Source: Lachnospiraceae bacterium (GTDB taxonomy: Bacteria > Bacillota > Clostridia > Lachnospirales > Lachnospiraceae). From it: a DNA stretch of 64,000 bases. Within the stretch, counting starts at the first letter, position 1. Each line of letters begins with the position of its first letter. Below, in pieces: positions 4,099 through 50,039 of the stretch. Position numbers and translations under genes: made by a program. The notes under the pieces are model-generated. The model was not told the DNA's origin. It saw nothing but the letters and a program-made list of their open reading frames with translations, and did no database searches. The stretch spans positions 1-64,000 of the forward strand of contig SVFB01000056.1 in the NCBI GenBank assembly GCA_015057085.1. The letters are read 5' to 3'.

Positions 4099-4188
4099 AA
4101 AAGTATTGTAGCAGAAGAAATGAGAGGAGGCAAAAGGGATGTTTTGTTAAAAACAGACAAAAACAAAGTATAGATTTTGTGAACGATT

Positions 4189-9939: not shown

Positions 9940-9973
9940 ACGGCTACTAGTAAAATAGACTAGTAGCCGTTTT
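9940..9973 (+). terminator. Terminator of the fru operon
   Basis: Perfect 12-bp stem ACGGCTACTAGT / ACTAGTAGCCGT with a 7-base loop, then TTTT. Confidence 0.88.
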
Positions 9974-33508: not shown

Positions 33509-34552
33509 ATGGGAAAAGCTTCTCTTGGAATTTATATGGAAGATCAGGAATACGGAAAGCGATTTTGCGCCATTTTGATGAATCGCTATCATAACAAAGT
33601 CAGCTTGCATATATACTCAAAGCTTGCAGAAATATTAAAGGAAAACCAGAATCTGGATGCATTTCTGGTGGAAGGAATCTGCAGCGAATTTTTGGAAGAG
33701 ATACAACAAATTCAGGGAAGAAATTGCCCGGTATTTTGGTTGAAAGACAGCGAAGATACAGAAATAGAAAATGAAACGATTGGTGAGGGGATGGGATTGA
33801 CAGAATTGGATAAGTACGGAAATATTGCCACAACCATGGATGAGATTCTCTCTCATATTGGACGGGAAATTACAGAAATCAGAGAAACAGGAGAACTTGG
33901 GAAGAAGACAGCTTTGTTTGGAATCTATGGGTTGTGCGGAAGCGAGTTTCAGCTACCATTCTCATTGACGCTGGGAGAAATACTATCAGAGACCGAAAAA
34001 GTCCTTGTGCTGGATTTGCAGGAAAACAGCGGATGTGCGGAAATCAGAAATAGTGAGAACCATCCGGGACTCGAGGACTTGATGCTTCTGGCAAAAACGA
34101 ATCAAATGCAGACGGAAGCGGTGCGCGAGACAATCGGAAGATACGGGAATATTGATTTTATTTATCCGGTGGAGAATACCGAAATTTTAACAGAAGCTGA
34201 TGGAAATCTTTATGAAACGATGATTTCTTATATCAAAAACTATATGGATTATACAGTAATTCTTGTGAATTTCGGACCTCGTTTTCAGGGTTTCTTTGAT
34301 TTGATGAACCAGTGTTCATCCATTTATATGATGCAAAGAAAAGGCGGATTAGGGCATTGGCGGGATGCGGAATTTAATGAGGAACTTAATCGCCGTGGCT
34401 ACGGATATTTAAGAGAGCGTTTATGCAAAATCGAGCTTCCAATCATAACAGGCTCTGCAATGAGTTGTGAAACACTGGTGGAACAATGGAGATGGGATGC
34501 ATTTGGGGATGACATCCGCAAACTCTCCATGAGGGAGGCCGTTAGTGGATGA
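33509..34552 (+). CDS. TadZ/CpaE-like pilus ATPase-fold protein
   Basis: A 347-residue protein with a receiver-like N-terminal half (MGKASLGIYMEDQEYGKRF) and a MinD-like C-terminal half. The P-loop position reads FGIYGLCGSEFQLPF, which lacks the Lys-Thr of a working Walker A, so it probably does not hydrolyse ATP. TadZ proteins of this kind place the Tad machine at the pole. ATG 33509 follows GAAGGAGAAAACA. Its end overlaps the tadA start by 8 bases. Confidence 0.75.
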   Translation: MGKASLGIYMEDQEYGKRFCAILMNRYHNKVSLHIYSKLAEILKENQNLDAFLVEGICSEFLEEIQQIQGRNCPVFWLKDSEDTEIENETIGEGMGLTELDKYGNIATTMDEILSHIGREITEIRETGELGKKTALFGIYGLCGSEFQLPFSLTLGEILSETEKVLVLDLQENSGCAEIRNSENHPGLEDLMLLAKTNQMQTEAVRETIGRYGNIDFIYPVENTEILTEADGNLYETMISYIKNYMDYTVILVNFGPRFQGFFDLMNQCSSIYMMQRKGGLGHWRDAEFNEELNRRGYGYLRERLCKIELPIITGSAMSCETLVEQWRWDAFGDDIRKLSMREAVSG

Positions 34553-35474
34553 AATCATTCGTGCAGTTCAAAAGCAGGTCTTAAGCGAGATGGATTTATC
34601 GCGCGACATATCAGATGAAGAAGTACGCGTGATGATTACGAAAGCAACGCGGGCAATAATAGGAATACGCTCGGTATCCCTGAAAGAGCGTGTGTTTGTG
34701 GAAAACGCTGTATTTAACGGATTGCGTCGTCTGGATATTATTCAGGAATTGGTGGAAGACGAGGACGTAACCGAAATTATGGTGAATGGTCCAAATCATA
34801 TTTTTTATGAGCGTGGCGGCGCAATCTATCAATGGGACCGTAAATTCGAATCTGAGGAGAAACTTCAGGATGTAGTACAGCGTATTGTGGGAAATCATAA
34901 CCGTTCAGTAAACTTAGCCTCTCCCATTGTGGATTCCAGGTTGGATGATGGTTCACGTGTTAATGTGGTGCTCTCTCCCGTAGCAATAAATGGCACCACT
35001 CTAACCATCAGAAAATTTCCAAAGGAGCCAATGTCTATGGCACGTCTTATAGAATTAGGGTCCATATCTGAGGAAGCGGCTGAGTTCTTACGGATTATGG
35101 TGCAGGCAGGGCGAAGTATTTTTGTGACAGGTGGAACCGGATCCGGAAAAACCACCTTCCTAAATGCCCTGTCTGAATATATACCATCTGATGAACGTGT
35201 TATAACCATAGAAGATTCGGCAGAATTACAGCTTAAGGGCATTAAGAATCTGGTACGGATGGAGACAAGAGGTGCAAATAATCGTCAGGTTGAGCCCATT
35301 ACCATCCGCGATTTGATCAAAACTGCACTCAGGATGAGACCGGATCGAATCATAGTAGGTGAGTGTCGAGGAGGAGAAGCCTTCGATATGTTGCAAGCTA
35401 TGAATACAGGACATCTTGTATTCCCATCTTGCCTACACTATTTCCATCTGAGAAATCCTCTGTTTGTTGTTTAA
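34545..35474 (+). pseudogene. tadA: tadA/cpaF pilus ATPase, 5' part (interrupted)
   Basis: Secretion ATPase that powers Flp pilus assembly. GTG start at 34545 with GGGAGG 6 bases upstream. Walker A VTGGTGSGKTTF (about residue 196) and Walker [20 protein letters not shown] are present. After MLQAMNTGH (ending at 35414) the frame leaves the gene and reads about 20 foreign codons to a stop at 35474. The expected continuation DGSMSTGHANS lies at 49054. The gene is split by the mobile element at the conserved ATPase core, so the truncated product lacks the last 91 residues and should be inactive. Confidence 0.9.
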
Positions 35475-37044
35475 GTGTTATTATTTGCCCTGATTTAAGG
35501 GTTATATCTATATCACCGTTAGGTGGTAGGTCGATTCTGTCAATATAATTTTGGATGCGGTCACGGTCTATAGTTGTAAAGTTCTTCAGCTCTGCAATAG
35601 CCTTTTTGATTTCGGCAATCTTATCATCCACATAGGAAAAACTTAATTTATTGGATTCTTTGTCCTCAATGATGGTAGTAAGATTATTGATTTCTTCGGT
35701 AATTGTATTCAGCTTAGACTTAACCTTCTCCTTAGCAGCATCCGTAAGCCCGTCGTCCATAAGAGCATCAATTAAGCTGTTTATCTTCTTTTCCTTAGAT
35801 GCCTTTTGCTTTTTTAGATTACTGATTTCTTCTCCGTTGTTTTGTGTAGCCTCCACACACTCAATAAGTACAGTTTCTAGGGATGAAAGAACATGGCTTT
35901 GTTGCTCAATAACATGTTTTAATGCTATTCGAGTTACTTCTTGCAAATCATCCTCATAAATACTACGTATAGGATTAGGACAGTCCTGATGATTTTTGAT
36001 TCTGTAGACTGGCTTTGTCTTTTTACGGTCTGCATATCCAAAATGATATGGCTTGCCACAAACTGGGCAAAAAATTTTGCTAGCATAGAGGTGCATTCCC
36101 TGAAAATGAGCCTGAACAGTCTTTTTGTCAGGCTTCTCGTAAATAGTGATTCTGGAATGGTGTATTCTCTGTGCCAGCTCGAAAAGGTCTGTATCAACAA
36201 TCTGAAGGTCAGGGCGTTCACAAAGTACCCAGTTTTCTTTTGGTAACTGGATACGTTTTGATTTTGTGCGTCCGGTACCGAGTTTAGTGGTACGTTTGTT
36301 GATATAAAATTTACCAATATAACGCTCGTCTTTGATTATGTTTGATACAGATCGGCTACATATACTAATACCTTCGTTATTTAGGGCACGCTGTATGGAA
36401 GCAGGAGTGCCGTTACGATAAACAAAGTCCTCAAAAATTCTGCGAACAATAGCAGCTTGTTCTTGATTGATGGTGATTGTCTTATCTTCACGATGCCAGT
36501 CATAACCGAAAGAGCAGTCTTTGGCAGATAATTCTTTTCGCTCACAACGGAGTTCCTGCGTTTTTTTACCATTTATGCTTTGCTGTTTAACAAACTGAGC
36601 ATCCATAGCATATTTAATACTGTGAAATAGACCAGAGTTCATATCTTCAAAGTCATGAACTTGTCTATCTTCAAGAGTAAGAACAGTTGCGTTGTGATCT
36701 AATAACATTCTGTTAAGTACAAGTGAGTTAAGTTCGTCACGATTAAGACGTGATAATGCCTTAGTAAGAATAAGGTCAAAACCATCATCAGAAAGTTTTT
36801 GAAGCATTTCATTATACTGTGGTCTGGTAAAATCATTTTTACCAGAGATACCATCATCTACGTATGTTTCAATAAGCTGGATGTTTGGATGCTCTTCAAT
36901 ATATTTTTTTGCAAGATAGACCTGATTAGAGCATGATTCCTTTTGTCCTTCGTTATCAGTTGATACTCTTGCATATATAACGGCTCTGATATTATCAGTG
37001 GAACCATTATTAAGTTTTTCTCTAATTTCTTGTGCTAATGTCAT
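35398..37044 (-). CDS. Large serine integrase
   Basis: A 548-residue large serine recombinase. The resolvase domain has the nucleophile Ser28 in [14 protein letters not shown]. The recombinase domain contains [14 protein letters not shown], a zinc ribbon [17 protein letters not shown]...NHQDC follows at about 305-350, and a coiled coil spans roughly 385-470. It integrates and, with a partner, excises the element. The last eight codons and the stop lie across attL: the TAG stop (35398-35400) is host tadA sequence. On the circular form the frame would continue for 44 more codons (see findings). It overlaps the upstream gene by 4 bases. Confidence 0.93.
35402..35414. repeat. attL core, 13-bp direct repeat
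   Basis: GAATACAGGACAT, identical to 49041-49053. The bases on each side differ (T/C before, C/G after). It lies in the tadA codons for MNTGH and in the last codons of the integrase gene on the other strand. Confidence 0.85.
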
Positions 37045-37730
37045 ATATCAATCTCCTTACGATATTTTAAAAATCCTTCTTGTAGCGAATATATGTCTAA
37101 ATGAAGTTGTTCTCGTATTTTGCAAAAGTTAGCTGTTCGCCAATGCACATCATTTAAGTTATGAACTAGGAGCAAATCGTATTTGTCTCTGTTTTTTATT
37201 AGCTCCATAAGTTGAACTTGCTCTCCATCCTTCTGATGAAGGCTTTCATCAAAATACTGGTCAACAACAGTCCATTTTGTTTTCTTCTTTGTAAATAGGG
37301 TAAAGATATCATTCTTTACCGGAATAACCTCTTTCATTTCGTTTGGTGTTCCAAAGTGACAGGTGTAGGTTGCTACACGAAGAGGTTTGTTAAAAGGTGC
37401 TTCATCCCAAATAAAGCATCCGTTTTCAATCGAATAAATTTGTAATCCTTTTTCACGTAACATCAGCAGGTCGTTCATGAATCTGCCAGTGTTTTTTGCT
37501 ATGTGGTAAAAATCCTTTGTAACAAGGACATCATATTTCTCACAACACTCAATGAAGCGGTCGTATTCAGTACGCTCAAACTTCTTAAGGCTCATATCAC
37601 AATAAATATCAACAACTTCAAAACCCATAGAGACCGCATATTCTTCTAATGCTTTTAACTGGTCTTTATAGATTTTGGGTCTTTGTTTACTTTCATTTGT
37701 AAAGTGATATATTGCTGCCTTTTTTCTCAT
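37041..37730 (-). CDS. Degenerate resolvase-like accessory protein
   Basis: A 229-residue protein whose N-terminal half copies the serine-recombinase catalytic fold (KKAAIYHFTNESKQRPK, GFEVVDIYCDMSLKKFERTEYDRFIECC, DVLVTKDFYHIAKNTGRF). The YARVS motif is replaced by YHFTNES, so the catalytic serine context and arginine are lost. The second half resembles another partial copy (WTVVDQYFDES, DLLLVHNLNDVHWRT). No DNA-binding or zinc domain follows. It overlaps the integrase start by 4 bases (ATGA), so it is probably made together with it and may modulate it. Function inferred from position. Confidence 0.7.
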   Translation of the reverse strand: MRKKAAIYHFTNESKQRPKIYKDQLKALEEYAVSMGFEVVDIYCDMSLKKFERTEYDRFIECCEKYDVLVTKDFYHIAKNTGRFMNDLLMLREKGLQIYSIENGCFIWDEAPFNKPLRVATYTCHFGTPNEMKEVIPVKNDIFTLFTKKKTKWTVVDQYFDESLHQKDGEQVQLMELIKNRDKYDLLLVHNLNDVHWRTANFCKIREQLHLDIYSLQEGFLKYRKEIDI

Positions 37731-37869
37731 AATCTGATCGTAACTCCTTTATCATTTCATTGACCGCTTCATACGGTGTTGGATCTTTTACTCCGCAAGA
37801 ATCCCTAAGGTCTAACATTTCTTGCTTGATTCTGCGATTTAATCTTTGTCGGTTTCTGCTTTTCATTTT
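37693..37869 (-). CDS. 58-residue basic protein, uncharacterised
   Basis: A small Arg/Lys-rich protein (MKSRNRQRLNRRIKQEMLDLRD) followed by TPYEAVNEMIKELRSDYEKKG. ATG 37869 is chosen because GAGGT lies 8 bases upstream; the longer frame starts at a TTG (37935) without a ribosome site. It overlaps the start of the resolvase-like gene by 38 bases, a sign of coupling. Small genes of this kind are common next to serine integrases in clostridial elements. Confidence 0.6.
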   Translation of the reverse strand, partial: KMKSRNRQRLNRRIKQEMLDLRDSCGVKDPTPYEAVNEMIKELRSDYEKKGSNISLYK

Positions 37870-37949
37870 TGCATACCTCAAATAAGCTATTCTTTTAACG
37901 ATGACGTCCGATAATTCGGGAAACACCGAGTTCAATAGAACTGTTATAG

Positions 37950-38087
37950 TTATGCCGCCTGTTTTTCTTTGTCGGCGTTCAGAATTTTCTGAGCTGCTTT
38001 ATCGTAAATGGTTTTGTCGATTACCTTGGATTGAAGTAAATCATTTAAGAGTAAGAGCTCTAGAGAGATGTTTTTCTTTTCATTCAT
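37950..38087 (-). CDS. 45-residue SHOCT-like protein
   Basis: A small ORF with an ideal AAGGAG site 8 bases upstream and an ATGA overlap with the stop of the Xis-like gene. The product (MNEKKNISLELLLLNDLLQS, then KVIDKTIYDKAAQKIL) has the length and pattern of a SHOCT-type oligomerisation motif. It is part of the xis-to-integrase operon. Confidence 0.65.
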   Translation of the reverse strand: MNEKKNISLELLLLNDLLQSKVIDKTIYDKAAQKILNADKEKQAA

Positions 38088-38290
38088 ACCGCAATCTCCT
38101 TTCCGACCTGTTCACCATGAAGGTAAGAGATTAAAGAATCTTTTGGGATTCTAACAAGTCTTCCTACCTTAATATGGGGAAGGTCATTATTTTTGATGTG
38201 TCTTCTTACGGTAGCTGGGGTTATATTTAGAATCTCAGCTACTTCAGAAATGCTTAATACTGCTGGATAATCTTTTAATAATTCCTCCAT
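38084..38290 (-). CDS. Excisionase-like HTH protein
   Basis: A 68-residue MerR/excisionase-type DNA-binding protein. The helix-turn-helix reads LSISEVAEILNITPATVRRHIKNNDLP and the wing KVGRLVRIPKDSLISYL. AGGAGGACAAAA precedes the ATG. It is the first gene of the minus-strand operon leading to the integrase, which fits a directionality factor, though it could also be a local regulator. Confidence 0.8.
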   Translation of the reverse strand: MEELLKDYPAVLSISEVAEILNITPATVRRHIKNNDLPHIKVGRLVRIPKDSLISYLHGEQVGKEIAV

Positions 38291-38341
38291 TTTTGTCCTC
38301 CTGAATCTTTTTGTATCATTTTGAATTTTAAAAACCTAAAA

Positions 38342-38419
38342 GTTCTGTTTAGAACAAATTTGTTTTCTTTAAGAGCATATTAGCACACAAAAATGTTTTA
38401 TGCAAGAACAAATTTGCTC
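38342..38419. promoter_or_regulatory. Palindromic operators between xis and regulator
   Basis: GAACAAATTTGTTT (38352-38365) and GAACAAATTTGCTC (38406-38419) are near-identical palindromes 54 bp apart. An overlapping GTTCT-GTTT-AGAAC inverted repeat lies at 38342-38355. They sit between the divergent Xis-like and XRE genes and are probably bound by the XRE regulator. Confidence 0.6.
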
Positions 38420-38479
38420 TATTTTATTAAAAAGAACGTCTAAAGTAACTTTTTTGTTTATAAAAGAGCATTATCGTGG

Positions 38480-38485
38480 TATGAT
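38480..38485 (+). promoter_or_regulatory. Extended -10 promoter of the XRE gene
   Basis: TGGTATGAT is an extended -10 (hexamer 38480-38485) with TTTATA 17 bp upstream, 35 bases before the ATG at 38520. Confidence 0.55.
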
Positions 38486-38519
38486 TTAAAGGTAATTTGA
38501 TAAGAAAGTGAGGCGTCTT

Positions 38520-39146
38520 ATGGCTATTTTTATGAGTATGCTCGGTGGCGAAGATTTTGCTGATATAAATGAGGACAGATCTGGAGCACGTGTAGGTGAA
38601 AGAATAAAGAAAATAAGAGAAACCCGAGAGATGAGCAGGGCGGAGCTAGGTGCATTAGTTGGGCTTGACCAAAATCGAGTTCAGCAATATGAAAATGGAA
38701 AGCGTAAGCCAAAGATTCCTTTATTAAAGAAAATCGCAGCAGCTTTAGGTGTTGAAACTATTGCGCTTATGGATCCAATAACAGAAAGCTATGTTGGAGC
38801 AATGCATGCCCTTTTTCAGATGGAAGAAAAACTAGATATGAAAGTTGTGAAAAAGGATGGTTGCTATTATCTGCAATTTGGAGATGGTAGATTTGACGGG
38901 ATGAATAGCTATCTAAGTAAGTGGTATGAGGTTCGACACGAATTGGATGAAGCTATGCCGAATCTTACTGATGAAGAACGTAAGAAAAAGATATTTGACT
39001 ACAATATGTTTGAATGGACTTATCCAAGTGGAACGGCGATGAATGCTGATAGAAAATACAATGAGCATCTAATGAATCGTATGGATGAAATACATGAGGA
39101 TAATGAGAAATTTAAGGAATTGATGAAGCGGTTAGATAATGAATAA
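38520..39146 (+). CDS. XRE-family regulator
   Basis: A 208-residue regulator. The helix-turn-helix (GERIKKIRETREMSRAELGALVGLDQNRVQQYENGKRKPK) is a classical Cro/CI type. The C-terminal part is helical and acidic with a coiled-coil end, probably for dimerisation or effector sensing; no peptidase triad is visible. ATG 38520 has GTGAGG 7 bases upstream; the frame opens earlier at GTG 38508, which is that ribosome site. It is divergent from the Xis operon and upstream of the restriction genes, and probably controls both. Confidence 0.85.
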   Translation: MAIFMSMLGGEDFADINEDRSGARVGERIKKIRETREMSRAELGALVGLDQNRVQQYENGKRKPKIPLLKKIAAALGVETIALMDPITESYVGAMHALFQMEEKLDMKVVKKDGCYYLQFGDGRFDGMNSYLSKWYEVRHELDEAMPNLTDEERKKKIFDYNMFEWTYPSGTAMNADRKYNEHLMNRMDEIHEDNEKFKELMKRLDNE

Positions 39147-39154
39147 AAGGGTGG

Positions 39155-40684: not shown

Positions 40685-40687
40685 GTG

Positions 40688-40716
40688 TTGATCTTCATCA
40701 GGGTTGTTGCTATAAT
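40688..40716 (+). promoter_or_regulatory. Promoter of the methylase gene
   Basis: TTGATC (40688-40693), a 17-bp spacer and TATAAT (40711-40716), also with an extended TG. This gives the methylase its own promoter after the nuclease gene. Confidence 0.75.
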
Positions 40717-40742
40717 TTAAAAGTAAAGGAGCTGTGAGAATA

Positions 40743-42131
40743 ATGGAAAAAACGGTATGTGAACTTTTTGCAGGAGTAGGTGGATTTAGATGTGGGCTAA
40801 ATCATATACATTCTGGTGATGATATAAAAGAAAAAGATAAAAATTGGAAAACGGTTTGGTTTTCACAATGGGAGCCAGCTGATAAAAAAACACAGTGGGC
40901 GCATGACTGCTATGTATATAATTTTGGAACCTGTTTAGACAATGATGGAAAAGATACTACAAATTATAATGTTGAGGAAGTTGATAAGACAACGCTTCCT
41001 AACTTTAATTTACTTGTTGGTGGATTTCCATGTCAGGATTATTCGGTAGCATCATCTTTAGCAACTTCAAAAGGCTTAGAAGGCAAGAAAGGTGTGCTGT
41101 GGTGGTCTATTAGAGAGACTTTAGAAGCGAAGAAACCACCATTCGTGTTATTGGAAAATGTAGATAGACTGCTAAAATCACCAGCAAGTCAAAGAGGTAG
41201 AGACTTCGGAATAATTTTGGCTTGTTTTAGAGATGAAGGTTATACTGTAGAGTGGAGAGTAATAAATGCTGCAGAGTATGGCTTTCAGCAAAGAAGACGT
41301 AGAACATTTATTTTTGCATATAAAAATGAGTTGAAATATGCAAAGAGTGTAATTAATAGAATCAATTACATTTCTCAGTATGGAGATGAATTACATCGTC
41401 AGAGTATAACTAAATTGATTAATTCAGAAGGCTTTTTTGCAAAGACATTTCCAATAATGGCTATTGATGGGAAAAAAATCAAGATAGAGAAATTACCACT
41501 TGGGATTGGAGAACTATCTGAGCATTTTAGCTTTTCATTTGAAAATAGTGGAGTAATGCTGGATGGCGTGATTTATACAGTAAAAACAATTCCGGATTAT
41601 GATGGAAAGCAAATAACTTTGGGGGATATCATGGAACAGGGCGATGTAGATGAGAAGTATTTTATCCCAGAGGAAAAGCTGTATTATACCTATCCTGATA
41701 TTACGCATAGTGATGAATCGCATGGAAAGTTACCAAAGGAACAAAGACAGACTTGGCAGTATTTAAAAGGCGCCAAAAAGCTTCCTAGAAAGGCATCTAA
41801 TGGGCATGAATATATCTTCTCAGAAGGCGCAATTCCTATGATTGATGCAGCGGACAAACCAGCACGAACCATGTTAACGTCTGAAGGTAGTTTTAGCAGA
41901 ACTACACATATTGTGAAGGATAAAAGGACTGGAAAGATAAGACTTTTAACTCCTACAGAAACAGAAAGGATACAAGGATTTCCAACTGATCATACAAAAT
42001 ATTCATTAGTTAATGGCGAAATAGTTGAAATGCCTGTTAATAAGAGACGATTTATGATGGGTAATGCGTTAGTTGTTAATCTAATTGAGCAAATGGAACC
42101 ATTGCTAAATAGCATTATTAGTAATGAATAG
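40743..42131 (+). CDS. DNA cytosine-5 methyltransferase
   Basis: A 462-residue Dcm-type enzyme that methylates C5 of cytosine to protect the host from the restriction partner. Motif I is CELFAGVGGFRCGL, motif IV is GGFPCQDYS with catalytic Cys97, then ENVDRLL and QRRRRTFIFA. The target-recognition region is the long variable stretch before the C-terminal MGNALVVNL motif. ATG 40743 has AAAGGAGC upstream. Its end overlaps the HNH gene by 8 bases. Confidence 0.93.
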   Translation: MEKTVCELFAGVGGFRCGLNHIHSGDDIKEKDKNWKTVWFSQWEPADKKTQWAHDCYVYNFGTCLDNDGKDTTNYNVEEVDKTTLPNFNLLVGGFPCQDYSVASSLATSKGLEGKKGVLWWSIRETLEAKKPPFVLLENVDRLLKSPASQRGRDFGIILACFRDEGYTVEWRVINAAEYGFQQRRRRTFIFAYKNELKYAKSVINRINYISQYGDELHRQSITKLINSEGFFAKTFPIMAIDGKKIKIEKLPLGIGELSEHFSFSFENSGVMLDGVIYTVKTIPDYDGKQITLGDIMEQGDVDEKYFIPEEKLYYTYPDITHSDESHGKLPKEQRQTWQYLKGAKKLPRKASNGHEYIFSEGAIPMIDAADKPARTMLTSEGSFSRTTHIVKDKRTGKIRLLTPTETERIQGFPTDHTKYSLVNGEIVEMPVNKRRFMMGNALVVNLIEQMEPLLNSIISNE

Positions 42132-42990
42132 GGCTTATGTGATTGGAGATGGTATATTGACAATTCGAGAAAAAATAATTAAGGCTGTGAATGAATATGT
42201 TTATGAAAATGGATATGAAACGTGGATGAGTCGTAGAGAGGTTGTTGACTTCGTGAACTCATGTTATACCGATAATATTAAGTATAGCAGCTTACTTCCA
42301 TCGGATTATTGTTATAATCGATATAATATTGGCCTGGCAGATTTTGAAAATAAAGACAGGCTTTTTGAATACAATGATGGTTTATATAGACTACTTGGAG
42401 AGCATTATTCATTTACGGGAGATGTTTGGCGATATCCAAGTGATGCTGATGTCGAACCATATATAGTAGGCCGGTGGGAAAATGGAAAATTTGAGTTATA
42501 TTCACATGAAGTAATTGAGAATATCAAAGATGAACAAAGCTTTAAGAAAGAAGCCGTAAATATAGCGGAGAGTATAGATGATGATTTAAATAATCAAGGT
42601 ATTCAGGGTGAAGAAAGAATAGCATTAACGAAAGTAAGAGTGAATCAAAGCACTTATAGGCGTGGATTGATTAGAAAATATAAGCACTGCTGTTTGTGTG
42701 GTGTTTCTTCTGAAGATTTTCTAATTGCAAGTCATATCAAGCCTTGGAGCGTGTCAGAAGCTGATGAAAAATTGGATTTTGATAATGGATTATTACTCTG
42801 TCCTAATCATGATAAGTTATTTGATTCTGGGTATGTATCATTTGATAATAATGGCTCGATTATGATATCTAAAAAACTTGGAGATGTTGATAAAGTTTTT
42901 TTTAATGTTAACGAGGAAATGAAAATTTCTTTGAATGGAAAGACAAAGGAATATATGAAATATCATAGGGATCATGTTTATAAAGGATAG
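42124..42990 (+). CDS. HNH endonuclease of the R-M cassette
   Basis: A 288-residue protein with a C-terminal HNH nuclease: CCLCGVSSEDFLIASHIKPWS, then NGLLLCPNHDKLFDSGYVSF. The Cys and His pairs bind zinc and the ASHI-N-H residues form the active site. The N-terminal 150 residues are unassigned. It overlaps the methylase stop, so it belongs to the same cassette and may be a second or modification-dependent nuclease. Confidence 0.85.
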   Translation: MNRAYVIGDGILTIREKIIKAVNEYVYENGYETWMSRREVVDFVNSCYTDNIKYSSLLPSDYCYNRYNIGLADFENKDRLFEYNDGLYRLLGEHYSFTGDVWRYPSDADVEPYIVGRWENGKFELYSHEVIENIKDEQSFKKEAVNIAESIDDDLNNQGIQGEERIALTKVRVNQSTYRRGLIRKYKHCCLCGVSSEDFLIASHIKPWSVSEADEKLDFDNGLLLCPNHDKLFDSGYVSFDNNGSIMISKKLGDVDKVFFNVNEEMKISLNGKTKEYMKYHRDHVYKG

Positions 42991-43000
42991 ATTCTATAGA

Positions 43001-43031
43001 AATAGTGGTGGTCGTATGAGCCACCACTATT
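43001..43031. terminator. Bidirectional terminator
   Basis: AATAGTGGTGG / CCACCACTATT stem with a 9-base loop and T-rich flanks, between the convergent HNH and membrane-protein genes. Confidence 0.8.
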
Positions 43032-43035
43032 TTAG

Positions 43036-44172
43036 TTATTGATGTTGTATCCGTTCCCATTCTTCTTTGCGATATCTGTTGGCATAATATCCGTCGAAAT
43101 ACCACAATATAAATAGGTATATAATCTGAATTCCGATGAAGAGAGGTATCAGATTGATGGGGATGAAATATCGTATTGGTTCGGCAAATACCGTGATAAC
43201 GGCAAGTGAACCAATAAGAACTTTGAAAGATAGTGTACACCAGCGCTCTTTGTACTTGTGATAGATAGCTACAATGCCAGCACCAATTCCAAAACATCCA
43301 GCTAAGATCAGTGCTGTAATAGAGATTCTAAGCAACCATGCCCAATACCATTCCATTTTATTAGAGAAACTCGAAAGCCATGGAACATAGATTGCTATAA
43401 AGTCTGCAATTGAGGATGCTACTACAATTATTAAGTCAACGAAGTCAGTACGCACTTGCTCATTCATAATACCGCAACATAGCAATGTGAAGGCGAGTAG
43501 CCCCAAATAGAGGCTTGTCTTTCTTTTAAGTGTTTCTTTCGCGGCTTTGGCTTCTGATTCTGCCAGTCGCTGTTTTTCATGAGCTTCATAGGTTTCGTGA
43601 ATAGATTGAGATTTAATCTCTTTTATTTTCTTTTCACAGTCACGGAGAGTTTGCTTTCGTTCAGCATTAGCTTTATCAACTGCGTCAACAGATGATTTGT
43701 TAACCATCTCACGAAGTCTATCGTTCAAAGCCTGAGTGTCCTCTAGATCTTCCATAAGCTCGACTTGTTCGTTCCTCAATTTCAGCCCGTTGTTGTTCCT
43801 CAAGTCGTCGTTCTGCTTCACGAGAGCGCGATTGTTCATCGTAAGCAATTGATTTATTCTCTGTGTCTCGAACAACTCTGTTCTTAGACTGGTTATCGCT
43901 GATGTCAGTTCTGATTTCTCGGATGAGAGATTCTGTATCTTTTCTTGATCCTGAGGTCTGCCCTGCTTCTTCAGTAAGTTCAGTTCTCTCGAAGTCTCGT
44001 TCAATTCCTTCTGCAATTGCTGTATCGTTTCTGATTGCTTTTGCAGTATCGAGTCCTGCAGCTGCGGATTCGAGTTCTTTGTAGTATTGTTTAAGTTCTG
44101 CTTCGGCTCGCTCTTTGTCTCTATCTGCTTTGAGTTTTGCGAGTCGGAGTTCATTCTGTCTCGTAAATTCAT
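43036..44172 (-). CDS. Coiled-coil membrane protein (DUF6040-like)
   Basis: A 378-residue protein with a long N-terminal coiled coil (about residues 35-210) and five or so membrane segments in the C-terminal half (YLGLLAFTLLCCGIM, ISITALILAGCFGIGAGIVAIY, LIPLFIGIQIIYLFILWYF). It resembles DUF6040 proteins found beside relaxases in Firmicute elements. Its first 151 codons overlap the relaxase gene in another frame. The start is supported by a perfect AAGGAGGT site 9 bases upstream, inside the relaxase gene. Role in mobilization is inferred. Confidence 0.75.
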   Translation of the reverse strand: MNLRDRMNSDSQNSKQIETKSEPKQNLNNTTKNSNPQLQDSILQKQSETIQQLQKELNETSRELNLLKKQGRPQDQEKIQNLSSEKSELTSAITSLRTELFETQRINQLLTMNNRALVKQNDDLRNNNGLKLRNEQVELMEDLEDTQALNDRLREMVNKSSVDAVDKANAERKQTLRDCEKKIKEIKSQSIHETYEAHEKQRLAESEAKAAKETLKRKTSLYLGLLAFTLLCCGIMNEQVRTDFVDLIIVVASSIADFIAIYVPWLSSFSNKMEWYWAWLLRISITALILAGCFGIGAGIVAIYHKYKERWCTLSFKVLIGSLAVITVFAEPIRYFIPINLIPLFIGIQIIYLFILWYFDGYYANRYRKEEWERIQHQ

Positions 44173-44968
44173 TTAATAATACCTCCTTGTTTACTTCCAT
44201 ACCTGAAAAGGTTTTTTCTAAGTTGCTATCACGGACTTTATCACCGTTTTGATTTTGAAAAACAATATGTTTTCTAGAGTCTTCCCATTGAACTGACCAA
44301 CCTCGTTCTTCCATGCCATCTATAAATTCTTCACGGTTAGTAGATTGAGGAATGACATCCAATAGAGCTATTGCACAATCAGCTACAAAACTCTTTTTGG
44401 AGTCGTTGACTAGAAGGTTATATTTATCTTTGCTCCATGCTGTGATTTCACCAACTTCCATTTTGGATCCATCGAAATGATGTCCTTTTACGGCTATAGA
44501 GAAGCCACGTTCAAGACAAAGAGAATTAGTAAACTCCTTTTGCTTTTCTAAATCGTGTTTGGTTTGATGTAGCTTTAACCCATCAATATAGGACACACTA
44601 TTGGTTACAATATGACAATGAAGATGACCTTTATCTTGATGAACGCTGATAACACATTGATGTCCAGAAAAGAATTGGTTAGCAAAATCTTTTCCAATTT
44701 CAAGAACCTGTGCTGGAGTTATGGGCTCATCTTTGTGGAAAGAAATGATATTATGTGAATACATTCTTCCTGAATCCTTATCCCATAGTTTCTTTTCATT
44801 TATCCATGTTTTATAGACATCATCGTAGTTTATGGTGCTGGCAGAATAAGGACCGGTAATCTCGACAAAACCTTCTTTTACTTTGTCATCACGAAGTACA
44901 TATTCGATTACGTTTCTCATTGCTCCGTGACTTTTTGTTGATTTATTGACGACCTTATTGATTGCCAT
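43718..44968 (-). CDS. MobP-like relaxase
   Basis: A 416-residue relaxase that nicks oriT and starts transfer. The HUH motif reads HQDKGHLHCH (His110, His115, His117) and the N-terminal Tyr in IEYVLRDDK is the likely nicking residue. The last 150 residues are charged and coiled-coil-like and are encoded in the region that also encodes the membrane protein in another frame. It overlaps mobC by 52 bases. Relaxases of this kind (VirD2-like) are found on plasmids and mobilizable elements of Firmicutes. Confidence 0.9.
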   Translation of the reverse strand: MAINKVVNKSTKSHGAMRNVIEYVLRDDKVKEGFVEITGPYSASTINYDDVYKTWINEKKLWDKDSGRMYSHNIISFHKDEPITPAQVLEIGKDFANQFFSGHQCVISVHQDKGHLHCHIVTNSVSYIDGLKLHQTKHDLEKQKEFTNSLCLERGFSIAVKGHHFDGSKMEVGEITAWSKDKYNLLVNDSKKSFVADCAIALLDVIPQSTNREEFIDGMEERGWSVQWEDSRKHIVFQNQNGDKVRDSNLEKTFSGMEVNKEVLLNEFTRQNELRLAKLKADRDKERAEAELKQYYKELESAAAGLDTAKAIRNDTAIAEGIERDFERTELTEEAGQTSGSRKDTESLIREIRTDISDNQSKNRVVRDTENKSIAYDEQSRSREAERRLEEQQRAEIEERTSRAYGRSRGHSGFER

Positions 44969-45309
44969 ATTTCTTCACTCTCCTTTCGCATAATAGAAAC
45001 TTGATCTGATAATACGGATAAAGAATTTTCCGTAGGCAACGCGCCTTGTCCATTTGCGACGTGAGCCATCTGATTGATATTAGTTCCAAGACCACGAACT
45101 TGTTTTTCAAAATCAGCAAAGGTTTTACTGATGTCTTTAAGGACAGCAATTTCATCTGAGGGTGTAATGGTAGCACCACGAACGGCACTGATGATATAGG
45201 CTTGCTGTGTAAGTCCTGATTCTTCGACCTTATTTTGGAAGTCAGCGTACTCTGTTTTATTCATACGTACAGTGACAGCTATGTTGCGTTTTCGTTTTAC
45301 TTTTTGCAT
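44917..45309 (-). CDS. mobC: MobC-family relaxosome protein
   Basis: A 130-residue accessory protein that helps the relaxase load at oriT. It has a ribbon-helix-helix-like N-terminus (NIAVTVRMNKTEYADFQNKVEESGLT) and the MobC motif VRGLGTNINQMAHVAN. It lies directly after the oriT-like region and overlaps the relaxase start, the usual order. Confidence 0.88.
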   Translation of the reverse strand: MQKVKRKRNIAVTVRMNKTEYADFQNKVEESGLTQQAYIISAVRGATITPSDEIAVLKDISKTFADFEKQVRGLGTNINQMAHVANGQGALPTENSLSVLSDQVSIMRKESEEIWQSIRSSINQQKVTEQ

Positions 45310-45529
45310 TTGTTTCTACTCCTTTCTTTGATTTGATACATAGGGTGTAATATTTAAAAAGTAATTGCTGTTATTAGCAGGATTCCAAAGGGATGCAATC
45401 TCTTTGGTGGGATGCAAGGGTGAAACCCTTAGATGGTCTGACGGAGACATAAGAAAATTATCCAGTGGATGATTTTCGTTGTCGGATGTCAGGCGGTCGG
45501 GCTTCGGTGTGCAGAGGTTGAATAAACCT

Positions 45530-45640
45530 TGCTAGGGGTTCCAAGGGGGCAAAGCCCACTGGCAAGTTTAGGTAGAAAATGCGAAAGCATTTCTCTACCG
45601 GTGCGTTGTGGCTTGCCACAATGCGAAACTTGCCTAACTA
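45530..45640. other. Candidate oriT
   Basis: A dense set of inverted repeats upstream of mobC. GGCAAGTTT (45561-45569) and AAACTTGCC (45626-45634) enclose two hairpins: GGTAGA-AAATGC-GAAA-GCATTT-TCTACC (about 45571-45599) and GTTGTGGC-TT-GCCACAA (about 45605-45620). A GGGGGCAAAGCCC hairpin lies just before. Position and structure fit an origin of transfer; the nick site is not identified. Confidence 0.55.
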
Positions 45641-45713
45641 CCCGAAGCAGATTTAGAAGCTTAGGCGGTCTGCGATAGGGGAGTTAGTGGGCTTGCGATT
45701 TACACAGAAGCGA

Positions 45714-45929
45714 GATACCTGATGGAGCAGTCGAGACGGAAATATGGTTTCCCTTGGGAAAGCATATTGATGTCGAGGTTGCTTCAAACGGAGATACTGA
45801 AGGACAGTCCAGTGGACTGTTCAAAGTATCGTAGTGGTCAGGTATCGAACTGCTGTGAAGAACTGATAGCGGTGCGAAGAGCACCGATTTCAGTTCTGCT
45901 AAATCGCTCGTCCGAGTTTATGAGGACGA
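45714..45929. other. Multi-hairpin structured region
   Basis: GATACCTGA (45714-45722) pairs with TCAGGTATC (45838-45846) around two hairpins (AATATG-TTTCCC / GGGAAA-CATATT at 45741-45768, and GATACT with ACAGTCCA / TGGACTGT at 45793-45830). A strong hairpin follows (AGAACTGA-CGGTGC / GCACCG-TCAGTTCT, 45859-45897), and then TCGTCC / GGACGA at 45908-45929. This could be a replication origin or a structured RNA. The whole 45310-45917 gap has no convincing gene. Confidence 0.6.
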
Positions 45930-48902
45930 TATGGAGAGGATGGTTTGTAAAGTTTCATTGACAAGTTCGTGAGGAAGCATATTCTCCTGTCGTTTGGTAC
46001 GGGAACAATTCTTCCAGTCGTTTAAGGAAATAGGTGAAATGCCCCAACTATTAACAGTTGCAACAACATCAGATTGCTTTAAACCATCTAAGGCTGGTAT
46101 TTGATATAATCCCGAACGATAACCCATAAGAATGGATAGAAGTATTTTGCGGTCAAGATCCTTGCCAATATAACCTTTGGTTTTTACAGTTGATTTAACC
46201 CTTACACGCTCCAAGTCTGCGGTAACTTTTACGCAATCTTCGTTTTGCATCGTGTTACGATAATTCAGAAACTCTTCGGCATCGTTAAAAGGTCTTGTAT
46301 CGTATTCAGCAATAACGGTATCTACTGAATACTGACCATCGGCACTGGTGTACTGGACTGGAGTATCAACAGAGGTTTCAACAATAGGGCATCGCTTATA
46401 ATCAAAGTTCATTGATAACTGACGAATACTTTCTGTAACATGGAAATCATGCTTTCTTTCAACGATTTCCGAAAACTCTGTCCATACCTTAGTGGAGCAT
46501 TTTAAACGTCCTTCTCGTGCTAATACAGCGATGATATAGGCATCTCTATCAGCTCTACTGTCTTTGATTTCTCCGGTGGTGTAGGAATTGTGAGCAAGTA
46601 CGCCTTTGTCGTTTACTGCTACATTTCCACGTGTGGTAATGTTGAGGAATGTGTCGTTAAAATGCTTTGGCTCCCAAACCTGATTCGCTTCACAATTTTC
46701 ACGTGTTTGATTAAGAACGTAGCGACCATTCTGGAATATCTGAGCAAAACCATAGGCATCTAATCCACGAACAACCTCAGTAGGTGCATCCGTTATAAAA
46801 CCATCAGTGGTAACTGAATAAACGTGATATCCCATATCGTGAAGCTGGTTGATGCAGGCGATTAACATACATCTGACAAGGGCTGTAGTATATGTGGCGT
46901 GGTATGGACTTGTGACTGTAGAAGGCTCTGCATCTACACGACCCATTGTCTTGGCGTTATAACGTGTTTTAGGACTTACATTTTGAGCTGTTTTTCCGTA
47001 ACAGCTATTAACCATTGTTTTAAGGCTCTTTTCTACAAGAGGATTGTCTTTATACATCTTTTTAGCCAACATACGGTCTTGAACAAGGTTTGTAACTGCA
47101 TATGCGAGGCATTGAGAAGGCTTTCCGTCCTTTTCAAGCATCTGACAAGTAAAACCACGGAAAATCTTAATCTTTGCGCCAAGCTTTAAAGCAAGAAACA
47201 TATCGGGACCCGACATATAAACGTTTCTTCCGTGACGAGGGTAAATCTTCATACCACCTTTTACAGGAACTGGAATGTTAGGACAGTAACAGTCGTCAGG
47301 GAAATCGAAATCTCCAACAGCAACAGCTGGAATAAGAGGATTCATTAAATCCTGCATTCGTAGATAGTCACGAGGGAGATCTCGAACGTGTTCGTTCCAA
47401 TCAATATCAATGATGTTTGCCATAGCGGTAGGATAAGCGTTTTGAAGGTCAAAGTCCGTTGTCTGCTCTGTTATCCATCCAATATAGAAAGATGCATTAA
47501 AACCACCTGTATAAGCCTCCTCAAAGTATTCCGATACAAGCTTGGCATCAGGATTGTCACGAATAGGAACATAACGGGTAGCCTTTAAAAACTTCATACA
47601 TTCATCTTTTGATGGGATAACACCTTCATCTAACATTTCTAACCCCCTATAAATTCGGTCATAGTCTTCTTTTTTACTCACACCAAAGTATTGTTTGATA
47701 CTTCCGTACATGGACGATGCAGCTGCACTCGAAAGAGTCATAGGTACAGCATGATTACACTGAAAAAGTTCAGCACAGAAGGAAACAACAATGTCGGAAT
47801 CATTCATGGCATATTTGTAATATTCAACTGGATTACTGATAGCAAATGCAGCCATGTGTTCAATTACTTTATTTGGAAGCTCTATCTTTGGTCGGTGTAT
47901 TACGTTACCTAAGGCTTTTAGAGATTTGTTTTCAGCAGGAGTTAAGCCCAGGGTATCTCTAATGCAAAGATTTACGAGCCAATAATAATTACGGTTTCTG
48001 TCATTGGTTGCAGTTAAGTGAACATACTCAGTAGTCATCCAACCACCTTGAATTTCTCCGAGTTTTCTTAATAGGTCGATATCGTATTTGGATCGTCTAA
48101 ACACGGATATGTCAGCTTTACCGGTGTGGCAGATGATTGTAATTGGAACAACGCTGTCAGACATTTTTCTAAAATCAATTACCTTAAAGGGTTCATGGTC
48201 TTTCCATTGTTTTTCCTTATAAACAAGCTTTTCTTTACGAATAAGAGGAAAGTCTTTGAAGTAACACTTTTTCAAATCGTCCAAAATATCAGCAAGACAG
48301 TATTTGAGTGGAATAAGACCACCTTCGGCAGTTACTTCTTGAAAACGAGGGTCAACAAGGAAAAAGTACCTTATCAATGTTTCTCCAATGGCTACAGTCA
48401 TTTGTAAAGAGAGCACACGCCTATTCTTTCCAGAGCCATCACGGTAATCCTGAAATTCAGTATCAAAACCTATGTTCAAACTCATGCTGTTAGATTGGAT
48501 AACTTTGAAAGAAGGAATTACATCAGCGATACTTTCAGCTTTTTGTATATCCAGCGGAGCGAGGAATGGTTTTTTATACGAAGTGGTGTCGGTGTCATTT
48601 ACATGTATTGCACCGCATAAGGGTGAAATGACACCACTAGGGTTAGCCGTTGATTTTACTGGGTTTGCGGTGTCTGTGATTTGACGCAAGTTTGATTCTT
48701 GCGTCAGGTTGGGTGACACCACTTCTTTTAGTAATGTGTACTCTTCACGACCTTTAAGGTACTGGCAACCGTGTTGCTGAAGGGCTTGTACGATTGCAGA
48801 ATGGTCATCTTGAGTCCAAATGACATCAAGCAAATGGTTTTCGTGTATGAGAACCGGCATTGAAGCAGGCTCTATTTTTAATGCTAAATTTCCATCAATC
48901 AT
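45918..48902 (-). CDS. Family-B DNA polymerase of the element
   Basis: A 994-residue family-B DNA polymerase. The 3'-5' exonuclease has Exo I FDTEF (Asp147, Glu149), an Exo II candidate at Asp264, and Exo III YAMNDSD (Tyr364, Asp368). The YTGG linker is at 464-467. Polymerase motif A is DLQNAYP (Asp485), motif B is KTMVNSCYG (about 628-636), and motif C is VYSVTTDGF (Asp699), with Thr replacing the first Asp of the usual DTD. It could be protein-primed or primer-independent; no terminal-protein gene is seen. AAGGAGG precedes ATG 48902. It presumably replicates the circular form of the element. Confidence 0.88.
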   Translation of the reverse strand: MIDGNLALKIEPASMPVLIHENHLLDVIWTQDDHSAIVQALQQHGCQYLKGREEYTLLKEVVSPNLTQESNLRQITDTANPVKSTANPSGVISPLCGAIHVNDTDTTSYKKPFLAPLDIQKAESIADVIPSFKVIQSNSMSLNIGFDTEFQDYRDGSGKNRRVLSLQMTVAIGETLIRYFFLVDPRFQEVTAEGGLIPLKYCLADILDDLKKCYFKDFPLIRKEKLVYKEKQWKDHEPFKVIDFRKMSDSVVPITIICHTGKADISVFRRSKYDIDLLRKLGEIQGGWMTTEYVHLTATNDRNRNYYWLVNLCIRDTLGLTPAENKSLKALGNVIHRPKIELPNKVIEHMAAFAISNPVEYYKYAMNDSDIVVSFCAELFQCNHAVPMTLSSAAASSMYGSIKQYFGVSKKEDYDRIYRGLEMLDEGVIPSKDECMKFLKATRYVPIRDNPDAKLVSEYFEEAYTGGFNASFYIGWITEQTTDFDLQNAYPTAMANIIDIDWNEHVRDLPRDYLRMQDLMNPLIPAVAVGDFDFPDDCYCPNIPVPVKGGMKIYPRHGRNVYMSGPDMFLALKLGAKIKIFRGFTCQMLEKDGKPSQCLAYAVTNLVQDRMLAKKMYKDNPLVEKSLKTMVNSCYGKTAQNVSPKTRYNAKTMGRVDAEPSTVTSPYHATYTTALVRCMLIACINQLHDMGYHVYSVTTDGFITDAPTEVVRGLDAYGFAQIFQNGRYVLNQTRENCEANQVWEPKHFNDTFLNITTRGNVAVNDKGVLAHNSYTTGEIKDSRADRDAYIIAVLAREGRLKCSTKVWTEFSEIVERKHDFHVTESIRQLSMNFDYKRCPIVETSVDTPVQYTSADGQYSVDTVIAEYDTRPFNDAEEFLNYRNTMQNEDCVKVTADLERVRVKSTVKTKGYIGKDLDRKILLSILMGYRSGLYQIPALDGLKQSDVVATVNSWGISPISLNDWKNCSRTKRQENMLPHELVNETLQTILSISSS

Positions 48903-49040
48903 ATCTATCCCTCCTTCTCAGTACGGAGATAACAGTTGACTGTTACCTCTACTGTTTGGTTGGGATTTCTCCTTGAATGAATGGATTTTGGGTAGGTAAA
49001 TGATGTTAGAAACACCTTGTTATAGGTGCTGTCAAGATGC

Positions 49041-49053
49041 GAATACAGGACAT
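49041..49053. repeat. attR core, 13-bp direct repeat
   Basis: GAATACAGGACAT, identical to 35402-35414, followed directly by the rest of tadA. Confidence 0.85.
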
Positions 49054-49329
49054 GACGGATCCATGTCCACCGGTCATGCAAATTCTTGCAGAGATATGGT
49101 CGGTAGACTGGAAATGATGGTGAAAATGGGGATGGATTTGCCTTTATCGGCGATTCGCGCCCAAATTGCATCCGGAATTGATTATTTGGTACATCTTAGC
49201 CGGATGAACGACAGAAGCCGCCGCGTGATGGAAATAGCGAAAATCGAGGGCGTAGAAAATGGAGAAGTTGTCTTAAAAACAATATTTGAGAGGAAAGGAG
49301 AGCGACTTTGTCAGATAGAAAAATTGTAA
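49041..49329 (+). pseudogene. tadA: tadA/cpaF pilus ATPase, 3' part
   Basis: The C-terminal 91 codons of tadA after the shared MNTGH sequence: DGSMSTGHANSCRDMVGR, DLPLSAIRAQIASGIDYLVHL and RRVMEIAKIEG, all typical of TadA ATPases. Joined to 34545-35414 it gives an intact 381-codon gene with no other mutation, so the split is recent or reversible. Its end overlaps the tadB start by 22 bases. Confidence 0.9.
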
Positions 49330-50039
49330 TTATTCAGGCTATCTTGTGTTCTATCGCAGTAGCAGCAGTGGCATCTTTTCTTCTATATGATTCCTGGAGA
49401 GTAATGCTGATTACGCCTGTCCTGTTTATTCCGATTCAAAAAGTATTTAGAAAAAGGGAACAGGAGAAACATATGGCTGGTCTTCGAGAGGACTTTTTAA
49501 TCGTGCTTGGGGCCGTGGAGGGTGATTTGAGAGCAGGTTTATCAATGGAAAATGCATGGAAAGAATCTCTTAGTGTACTTCAGAGTGCTCATAGCGACGC
49601 TAAGCGACCGGGCTATATGGAAGAGGAATTAAAAAGAATGTGTAGATCTTTGGAATTAAACATTCCGTTGGAGCGTCTTCTTTATGATTTTGCCAAAAAG
49701 ACGAACGAACCGGATATCCTAAATTTTGCGGAAGTCTTTGGATATGCGAAAAGAGGCAGTGGAAATTTGGCAGAAACAGTCGAGCACACAGTGGCAATCA
49801 TAAGAGAAAAGGGAGAAGTCCAAAAGGAGATAGAGGTATTGGTGGCATCAAAAAGGATGGAGCAAAGGGTGATGAATTTAATGCCCATTTTCATATTGCT
49901 GTATTTAAGGATTACCGCATCAAACTATTTGAGTGCCTTGTACCACAATATTGGAGGTGTAATTGCGATGAGCATTTGTGCAGCCATATATGCTATCACA
50001 TATTGGCTTTCACAAAAGATTCTAAGAATAGAGGTGTAG
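49308..50039 (+). CDS. tadB: TadB-like pilus inner-membrane protein
   Basis: A 243-residue GspF/TadB-type membrane protein of the Flp pilus platform. Two N-terminal and two C-terminal hydrophobic segments flank a cytoplasmic helical domain (EDFLIVLGAVEGDLRAGLSMENAW, ILNFAEVFGYAKRGSGNLAETVEHT). The TTG start at 49308 has GGAG 7 bases upstream and overlaps tadA. It is the first Tad gene after the element, so in the integrated state its transcription from the tad promoter is interrupted. Confidence 0.85.
   Translation: MSDRKIVIIQAILCSIAVAAVASFLLYDSWRVMLITPVLFIPIQKVFRKREQEKHMAGLREDFLIVLGAVEGDLRAGLSMENAWKESLSVLQSAHSDAKRPGYMEEELKRMCRSLELNIPLERLLYDFAKKTNEPDILNFAEVFGYAKRGSGNLAETVEHTVAIIREKGEVQKEIEVLVASKRMEQRVMNLMPIFILLYLRITASNYLSALYHNIGGVIAMSICAAIYAITYWLSQKILRIEV

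Follow-up and report, generated by a model that had tools for sequence, protein, structure and literature searches.

An attachment site within a serine integrase gene as a probable joint to replication and mobilization genes in an integrative mobilizable element of Lachnospiraceae

Background

The nearest precedent for the organization described here is the archaeal provirus SNJ2, for which transcript mapping and mutants have established that excision produces an operon of the integrase and replication genes, and whose authors propose that excision gates replication (PMC13107129). As in the present element, the integrase is joined to replication genes located at the other end, and a new reading frame spans attP. 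The two differ in several respects: SNJ2 is an archaeal virus with a proposed rolling-circle initiator, the frame spanning its attP is a separate ORF downstream of the integrase, and its transcript starts inside the integrase gene; moreover, the evidence is experimental there, while it comes from sequence only here (PMC13107129).

In Tn916, processing and conjugation genes are expressed from Porf7 only after circularization (PMC11658703), in agreement with what an earlier note on this DNA said of Tn916. When Tn916 is integrated, these genes have no internal promoter; in the present element none was found for the polymerase by scans that are weak. Unlike the latter, Tn916 encodes conjugation machinery of its own, together with the antiterminator canT, and has a terminator with insulating function, T1; a reading frame spanning the junction is not mentioned in the available portion of that report (PMC11658703).

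Two systems share single traits with the element. In mycobacteriophage BPs attP lies inside an ORF, and integration alters the C-terminus of the product, from 136 to 103 residues; the split gene, however, encodes a repressor and not an integrase, and the longer form bears a degradation tag (PMC4557955). In the archaeal plasmid pTN3 the integrase gene is disrupted by integration, but the enzyme is a tyrosine recombinase acting at a tRNA-Leu gene, and the text available mentions no connection with a replication gene downstream (PMC5495485).

Pipolins and PolB plasmids resemble the element in being integrative or plasmidic, in encoding their own B-family polymerase and in commonly carrying restriction-modification genes (PMC9710591, PMC7385651). 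Plasmidic pipolins, including those of S. epidermidis, carry relaxases (PMC9710591). The integrases described for them are tyrosine recombinases (PMC9710591, PMC7385651), whereas a serine integrase is found here, along with a polymerase about 25% identical to the plasmid PolBs. Finally, IME_Rho_tet, from gut Bacillota, is also mobilizable, with a serine recombinase, a relaxase and mobC, but it uses another target site and carries tetracycline resistance, and the word polymerase does not occur in the main text of the report, as available (PMC12904643). No serine integrase gene spanning its own attP was found in the literature, most subscription papers being outside the scope of the search.

An integrative mobilizable element in a tadA gene

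The window, i.e. the whole stretch of DNA analysed, is 64,000 nucleotides long and comes from a contig of a Lachnospiraceae bacterium. It contains an element that interrupts a tadA/cpaF-type pilus ATPase gene and measures 13,639 bp from one core to the other (Table 1). The 3' part of the host gene resumes at 49041 (49041–49329), and joining the flanks at the 13-bp core generates a single open ATPase frame. The insertion splits tadA/cpaF within the codons for AMNTGHDGS; until the element excises, its carrier is probably without this pilus ATPase. We infer that crossover takes place at the dinucleotide CA, at 35412–35413: CA/TG is central in the dyad of all four joined attP sites.

The element is classified as integrative and mobilizable because it encodes a site-specific recombinase, the serine integrase, and has defined ends, as seen from the 13-bp core, the attP dyad and the rejoined host frame; it also has a relaxase (PF03432) with an accessory factor (PF21983/PF05713) and no conjugation machinery of its own. 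Type IV secretion families were absent from the element ORFs scanned, which comprised a subset of the small ones. A joined attP was looked for in the host assembly and none was found, a result uninformative in either direction. The region 34000–50000 has no match in Rfam.

Table 1. Coordinates of the features of the element and of its insertion site, as positions in the window
Feature	Position	Strand	Evidence or remark
Host tadA/cpaF pilus ATPase gene, 5' part to left core	34545..35414	+	T2SSE Pfam 6e-50
Large serine integrase, integrated form, 548 aa	35398..37044	-	Resolvase, Recombinase, Zn_ribbon_recom Pfam; phrog_95 5e-75
Left core copy GAATACAGGACAT (attL), 13 bp	35402..35414		exact repeat
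Second serine-recombinase-like protein	37041..37730	-	PF00239 2.4e-11; 4-nt overlap with integrase start
Excisionase-like HTH protein (xis)	38084..38290	-	TIGR01764 2.6e-13; HTH_17
Divergent control region, two AGAACAAATTTG(T/C)-type repeats	38291..38507		best -35/-10 not above shuffles
HTH_3 (cI-like) repressor	38508..39146	+	PF01381 5.8e-14
Terminator-like site, 14-bp stem, after DUF6040	42999..43033		found on + strand only
DUF6040 protein	43036..44172	-	PF19506 3.8e-14
MobA/VirD2-like relaxase, MOBP type probable	43718..44968	-	PF03432 1.7e-28; NF041893 below cut-off
NikA/MobC-like relaxosome protein	44917..45309	-	PF21983 1.4e-12; PF05713 1.9e-7
GC-rich intergenic stretch, 608 bp, polymerase-mobC gap	45310..45917		ten inverted-repeat pairs
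B-family DNA polymerase, 994 aa	45918..48902	-	phrog_11768 1e-12; DNA_pol_B_2 1.8e-4 (below cut-off)
Conserved integrase tail, 48 codons + stop 48905–48907	48905..49051	-	joined to integrase only in circle
Shine-Dalgarno AAGGAGG of polymerase	48910..48916	-	within last integrase codons
Predicted 10-bp hairpin in tail mRNA, just before Shine-Dalgarno	48926..48949	-	local fold
Right core copy GAATACAGGACAT (attR), 13 bp	49041..49053		exact repeat

The order of genes that the earlier note had assigned to the minus strand is the one found: xis-like gene, small ORFs, integrase, attP, polymerase, mobC, relaxase and the DUF6040 gene, whose product is the membrane protein of that note. Between the small ORFs and the integrase lies an additional minus-strand gene, encoding a second serine-recombinase-like protein. 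YxRxS, which we take to be the catalytic motif of serine recombinases, is absent from this protein and from its relatives (five of the five elements aligned), and the protein may be a regulatory partner or a directionality factor.

The region between xis and the divergent repressor gene is the presumed promoter of the xis-int operon. It contains two near-identical palindromic repeats, at 38351–38370 and 38405–38424; these AGAACAAATTTG-type repeats are likely operators of the repressor. At the far side of the element, the GC-rich stretch between polymerase and mobC is, by its sequence, a possible candidate for oriT and/or a replication origin, and the terminator-like site after the DUF6040 gene is a possible end of the circle's operon. 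The plus strand also carries restriction-modification cargo (39155–42990): a Sau3AI/MutH-like endonuclease, a C5 cytosine methylase and an HNH/DUF7225 protein.

The polymerase has distant relatives in the PolB proteins of small plasmids from staphylococci and fusobacteria (23–27% identity and E 5e-22 to 4e-31 among the matches listed), with weaker matches in Pseudosulfitobacter plasmids. By tblastn 45 plasmid records were matched, all at less than 60% identity; three of them are predicted to be mobilizable, one being an S. epidermidis plasmid with a relaxase of type MOBP. No match was obtained from phages at 1e-5, nor from PDB. An alignment of 12 relatives shows largely invariant residues at DTE, NDxD, DLQNAYP, NSCYG and TTDG, presumably the motifs for exonuclease and polymerase activity. 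The protein would be the one that replicates the circle.

Related elements

The search of genome contigs with the polymerase identified 15 loci, 10 of them in Lachnospiraceae records. Six of the 15 (L003, L005, L009, L010, L012, L013) are located in tadA and feature the same kind of right end; one more tadA element, L045, was added by an order-level search with the integrase. Together with the element of the window, marked "WIN", they form the set of eight tadA-site elements used below. Both ends are known in five elements, the fifth being L045, which was left out when ends were joined.

In family genomes the polymerase was matched in 2 of 299, namely the genome of the window itself and G240, where the match is a piece of 38 residues; viral contigs yielded no relative of it. 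For the integrase, viral contigs yielded one locus, L033, with an end that matches the L013/L020 element; at E 1e-60 it was matched in 2 of 392 genomes of the order, those of the window and G004, and in 1 of 391 genomes of the class, again that of the window. Within the genus, 20 of 62 genomes were matched at 1e-20; besides the window's own, none of the matches is closer than about 30% identity.

The integrase reading frame across the attachment site

When the two ends are joined at the 13-bp core, the integrase ORF reaches 592 aa, compared to 548 aa in the integrated form. In the latter, the TAG stop is provided by the host gene and the end falls at 35398; in the circle, the frame continues for 48 codons beyond the crossover, up to a TAG at 48905–48907, which acts as integrase stop in the circle only. 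The relatives behave alike: each of the four joined circles gives a single long integrase, predicted at 587–595 aa, versus 547–565 aa for the integrated form in five elements, where 3 to 20 residues follow the crossover (the length for L010 is counted from a few codons after its start). As in BPs, integration alters the C-terminus of an element protein, at the level of the predicted proteins; in comparison with the known systems this is the more unusual feature of the element, and it was absent from the earlier note.

The integrase frame is open for 45–50 codons after the crossover in all eight tadA-site elements, and each of the remaining two frames contains 2–5 stops in all eight. No tail contains an ATG codon. 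GTG or TTG codons, at which an internal start could conceivably lie, are present in seven of the eight (none in L012). When the bases of each tail are shuffled, the frame stays open in 0.04–0.10 of the trials; since the elements are related, these chances do not multiply from tail to tail.

The substitution pattern indicates a coding function. In the closest pair, WIN and L003, 13 of 33 synonymous sites are changed, but only 4 of 111 nonsynonymous ones (dN/dS 0.07). Over all 28 pairs dN/dS ranges from 0.07 to 1.08, with values of 0.39–1.08 for the pairs including L009 or L013, the most diverged tails. Past the attP arm, changes summed over four disjoint pairs affect 58 of 135 third codon positions versus 75 of 270 first and second ones (Fisher P 0.0025); P is 0.0008 when the closest pair is taken by itself, while the excess is absent from the L009–L013 pair. 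The tails can be aligned as proteins, with the consensus VFLTSFTYxKSIxSRRNPNxTVEVTVNCYLRT and five invariant columns. A conserved coding tail, devoid of ATG, is best explained if it is translated as the C-terminal part of the integrase made from the circle; judged by reading frames and substitutions, the integrase joint is real and under selection.

An 88-aa ORF at 48905–49171, present in the integrated form, was taken as a chance product: its upstream half is antisense to tadA, and the relatives do not have the open stretch in common, its extension from the chromosome into the tail varying from 4 to 51 codons among the eight elements, with an ATG in two (WIN and L009). Nor does the tail appear to be a general domain of serine integrases, as the joined 592-aa protein matches phrog_95 only up to residue 531. 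A profile of the tail had matches in 2 of 397 family genomes, that of the window and G004, each carrying this kind of element; a 55-residue tail piece had no match in plasmids at E 1.

The circle junction itself is an inverted repeat around a central TG/CA, where 18–20 of the 25 arm positions match in the four elements joined. Such dyads are usual for serine integrase sites; here the repeat sits within integrase codons. In the joined mRNA it would fold into a strong hairpin, not accompanied by a run of T.

The joint with the replication gene

According to the earlier note, excision would bring the integrase stop to two bases from the polymerase start, with AAGGAGG across the joint. The gap is confirmed, 48903–48904 separating the integrase stop from the polymerase ATG at 48900–48902, and so is the head to tail junction of the two genes, through the 592-aa circle ORF and its conserved coding tail. 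The position of AAGGAGG is correct as far as the joint between the two genes is concerned, the motif being included in the last integrase codons; it does not span attP, the crossover being 148 nt away from the ATG.

The distances from the tail stop to the next ATG in the eight tadA-site elements are +2, -4, +13, -4, +12, -4, +14 and +9. With a stop located between 14 nt before and 4 nt inside the next start, in eight of eight, any mRNA carrying the full-length integrase of the circle must reach the following gene. This argument, which needs no promoter prediction, is the strongest support for the operon proposed by the earlier note for the circle, and makes it, in sequence terms, well supported. 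The gene that follows the tail is the polymerase in seven elements and a replication initiator in L045. As the seven were found through the polymerase, or given with it, its presence after the tail is not independent evidence; only L045 provides an independent test.

In L045 the tail is conserved, with 79% identity over 52 residues; the element also lies in tadA and retains the mob genes, together with two of the three restriction-modification genes. Its polymerase slot encodes a 297-aa protein, which matches phrog_270 (phage replication initiation, 1e-15) and has no match in Pfam. Conservation of the tail in an element without polymerase indicates that the former is kept independently of the latter, and a replication gene once more occupies the slot. 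The replacement, at 4173–5567 of L045, consists of the replication initiator and a second small gene, and looks like an exchange of replication modules at the att-proximal slot. A stretch resembling the GC-rich one at 45310–45917 is also present in L045, as are the Sau3AI/MutH-like endonuclease and the C5 cytosine methylase, with approximately 70–75% identity.

A scan of the minus strand detected no terminator-like site between xis and the left end, none between the right core and the polymerase, and none at the joined junction. The earlier note also saw no clear promoter for the polymerase, and this agrees with a consensus scan, in itself weak, where no site scored 9/12 or more on the minus strand of 48681–49400. 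With a weight matrix, made of approximate frequencies, none of the eight right ends rises above shuffles; yet the same is true for the presumed xis promoter region, so that promoter scans carry little weight. A 9/12 promoter-like site is present at 35570–35542, inside the integrase gene and directed at attP, but 34 such sites occur in 35200–45400, versus 36 expected. A promoter just inside the right end was discarded: a perfect TTGACA is found near the core in WIN, L003, L005, L012 and L045, with no good -10 at usable spacing. The hexamer corresponds to Leu-Asp-Asn/Ser codons and is missing from L009, L010 and L013. Poor expression of the polymerase in the integrated state is plausible, and confinement of its expression to the circle is likely.

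Interpretation

It is probable, in our judgement, that the attachment site acts as a genetic joint: excision would rebuild the integrase, and the integrase transcript would enter the replication and mobilization genes only in the circle. This reading builds on what is seen in the sequence, i.e. the joint, the conserved tail, the stop at the next start, the gene order and the lack of a detected terminator. With attP falling within the integrase gene, towards its 3' end, integration would leave an integrase truncated by tadA sequence at one end and, at the other, a tail of 45–50 codons, devoid of ATG, before the replication gene. Excision would rejoin body and tail. A transcript, starting either in the repressor-controlled xis region or at a promoter inside the integrase gene, would then extend past attP, along the tail, and reach the polymerase and mobilization genes, which would gain this promoter only in the circle. 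Which of the two drives the circle operon is a matter of inference.

A further step may be conceived, though tentatively, as we would not expect it to hold. The direction of recombination would be set by the tail: the long integrase, made from the circle, would carry out attP x attB recombination; the short form, ended by the host, would excise the element with the help of Xis and perhaps of the inactive recombinase-like partner. A single crossover would, in this case, exchange the integrase isoforms and also flip the replication operon.

The tail could, alternatively, be kept only for the function of the integrase in integration; its proximity to the polymerase would reflect compact packing, and the polymerase would have its own weak or unusual promoter in both states. 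Conservation of the tail in L045, where no polymerase follows, fits this explanation, as does the strong Shine-Dalgarno sequence of the polymerase, and non-consensus promoters could escape the scans. Packing alone, however, does not change the consequence of a stop overlapping the next ATG, or within 14 nt of it, in all eight elements: the full transcript enters the next gene anyway. Moreover, L045, which was not found through the polymerase, still has a replication gene next to the tail. We regard this explanation as unlikely.

An RNA lock is another conceivable explanation. The polymerase Shine-Dalgarno could be folded away in chromosomal transcripts, and opened only by ribosomes translating the integrase tail. 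A stable hairpin is in fact predicted just before it, with z -3.9 in WIN and z -6.0 in L045, while six other element genes range from -1.3 to 0.9, and the local fold is below shuffles in five of the eight tadA-site elements (MFE P <= 0.035). The Shine-Dalgarno itself is paired in most single folds, but dinucleotide shuffles pair it equally well in eight of eight (P 0.39–0.93), and the covariation term assigned by RNAalifold to the tail hairpin is unfavourable. An RNA lock is accordingly considered improbable in the tadA group. The translational joint suggested by the earlier note may fall short of strict coupling: the polymerase has a strong Shine-Dalgarno of its own, and in none of the eight does its pairing exceed that of shuffles. 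That the open tail frame is a functionless chance read-through can practically be dismissed: a single open frame of this length has a shuffle probability of about 0.04–0.10, but it is open in eight of eight, versus none of eight for either other frame, and conserved as protein, with dN/dS 0.07 in the closest pair.

If the attachment site is indeed a genetic joint, DNA topology would be the switch: one recombination would rebuild the integrase and activate the genes for replication and transfer, the joint itself having no further regulator. A principle shown experimentally in SNJ2 would be extended to bacteria and to serine integrases, and naturally occurring long and short forms of a serine integrase could help to explain the control of directionality. 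In addition, when an integrase of this family is read from a genome with the element integrated, its true C-terminus is missing, so that tools derived from such sequences may carry a truncated enzyme.

Relatives at tRNA sites

Some relatives of the polymerase are found in elements located at tRNA genes. L006 and L016 are the two tRNA-Pro relatives with integrase and polymerase on one contig, both genes being partial in L016. In both, tRNA-Pro closely follows the end of a tyrosine integrase gene, which in the circle gives the order integrase, att, polymerase. In L056 and L057 a related integrase likewise ends at tRNA-Pro, on the opposite strand; L058 and L016 are the same contig.

In a polymerase tree of 14 rows the attachment types are intermixed: at least two changes are forced by the starred branches, 7 of the 11 inner branches being weak, and two of the rows, L008 and L014, are assigned to the tRNA group by upstream similarity or a nearby tRNA alone. 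As the types are intermixed and the order is kept, recombinase modules appear to have been exchanged.

A tyrosine recombinase with a tRNA att site is usual in E. coli pipolins, although not strictly defining. Both traits are present in the tRNA-Pro relatives; the element of the window has a serine integrase and is located in tadA.

In the tRNA-site relatives the Shine-Dalgarno of the polymerase is hidden in a hairpin, to an extent beyond shuffles in five of the six elements scored (the sixth, L006, gives P 0.115); a seventh, L008, was left unscored because its match begins inside the gene. The hairpin is located at 9954–9997 in L004 and at 9958–9997 in L016, and is also found in L007, L011 and L014. 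A terminator-like hairpin at the polymerase start implies that read-through from the integrase would need antitermination there, and calls for caution over a simple read-through model for these elements. The hairpin is reminiscent of T1 in Tn916, a terminator that overlaps orf24 (PMC11658703). The terminator-like character is seen in both loci scanned, and compensatory changes occur at 6 of 14 pairs.
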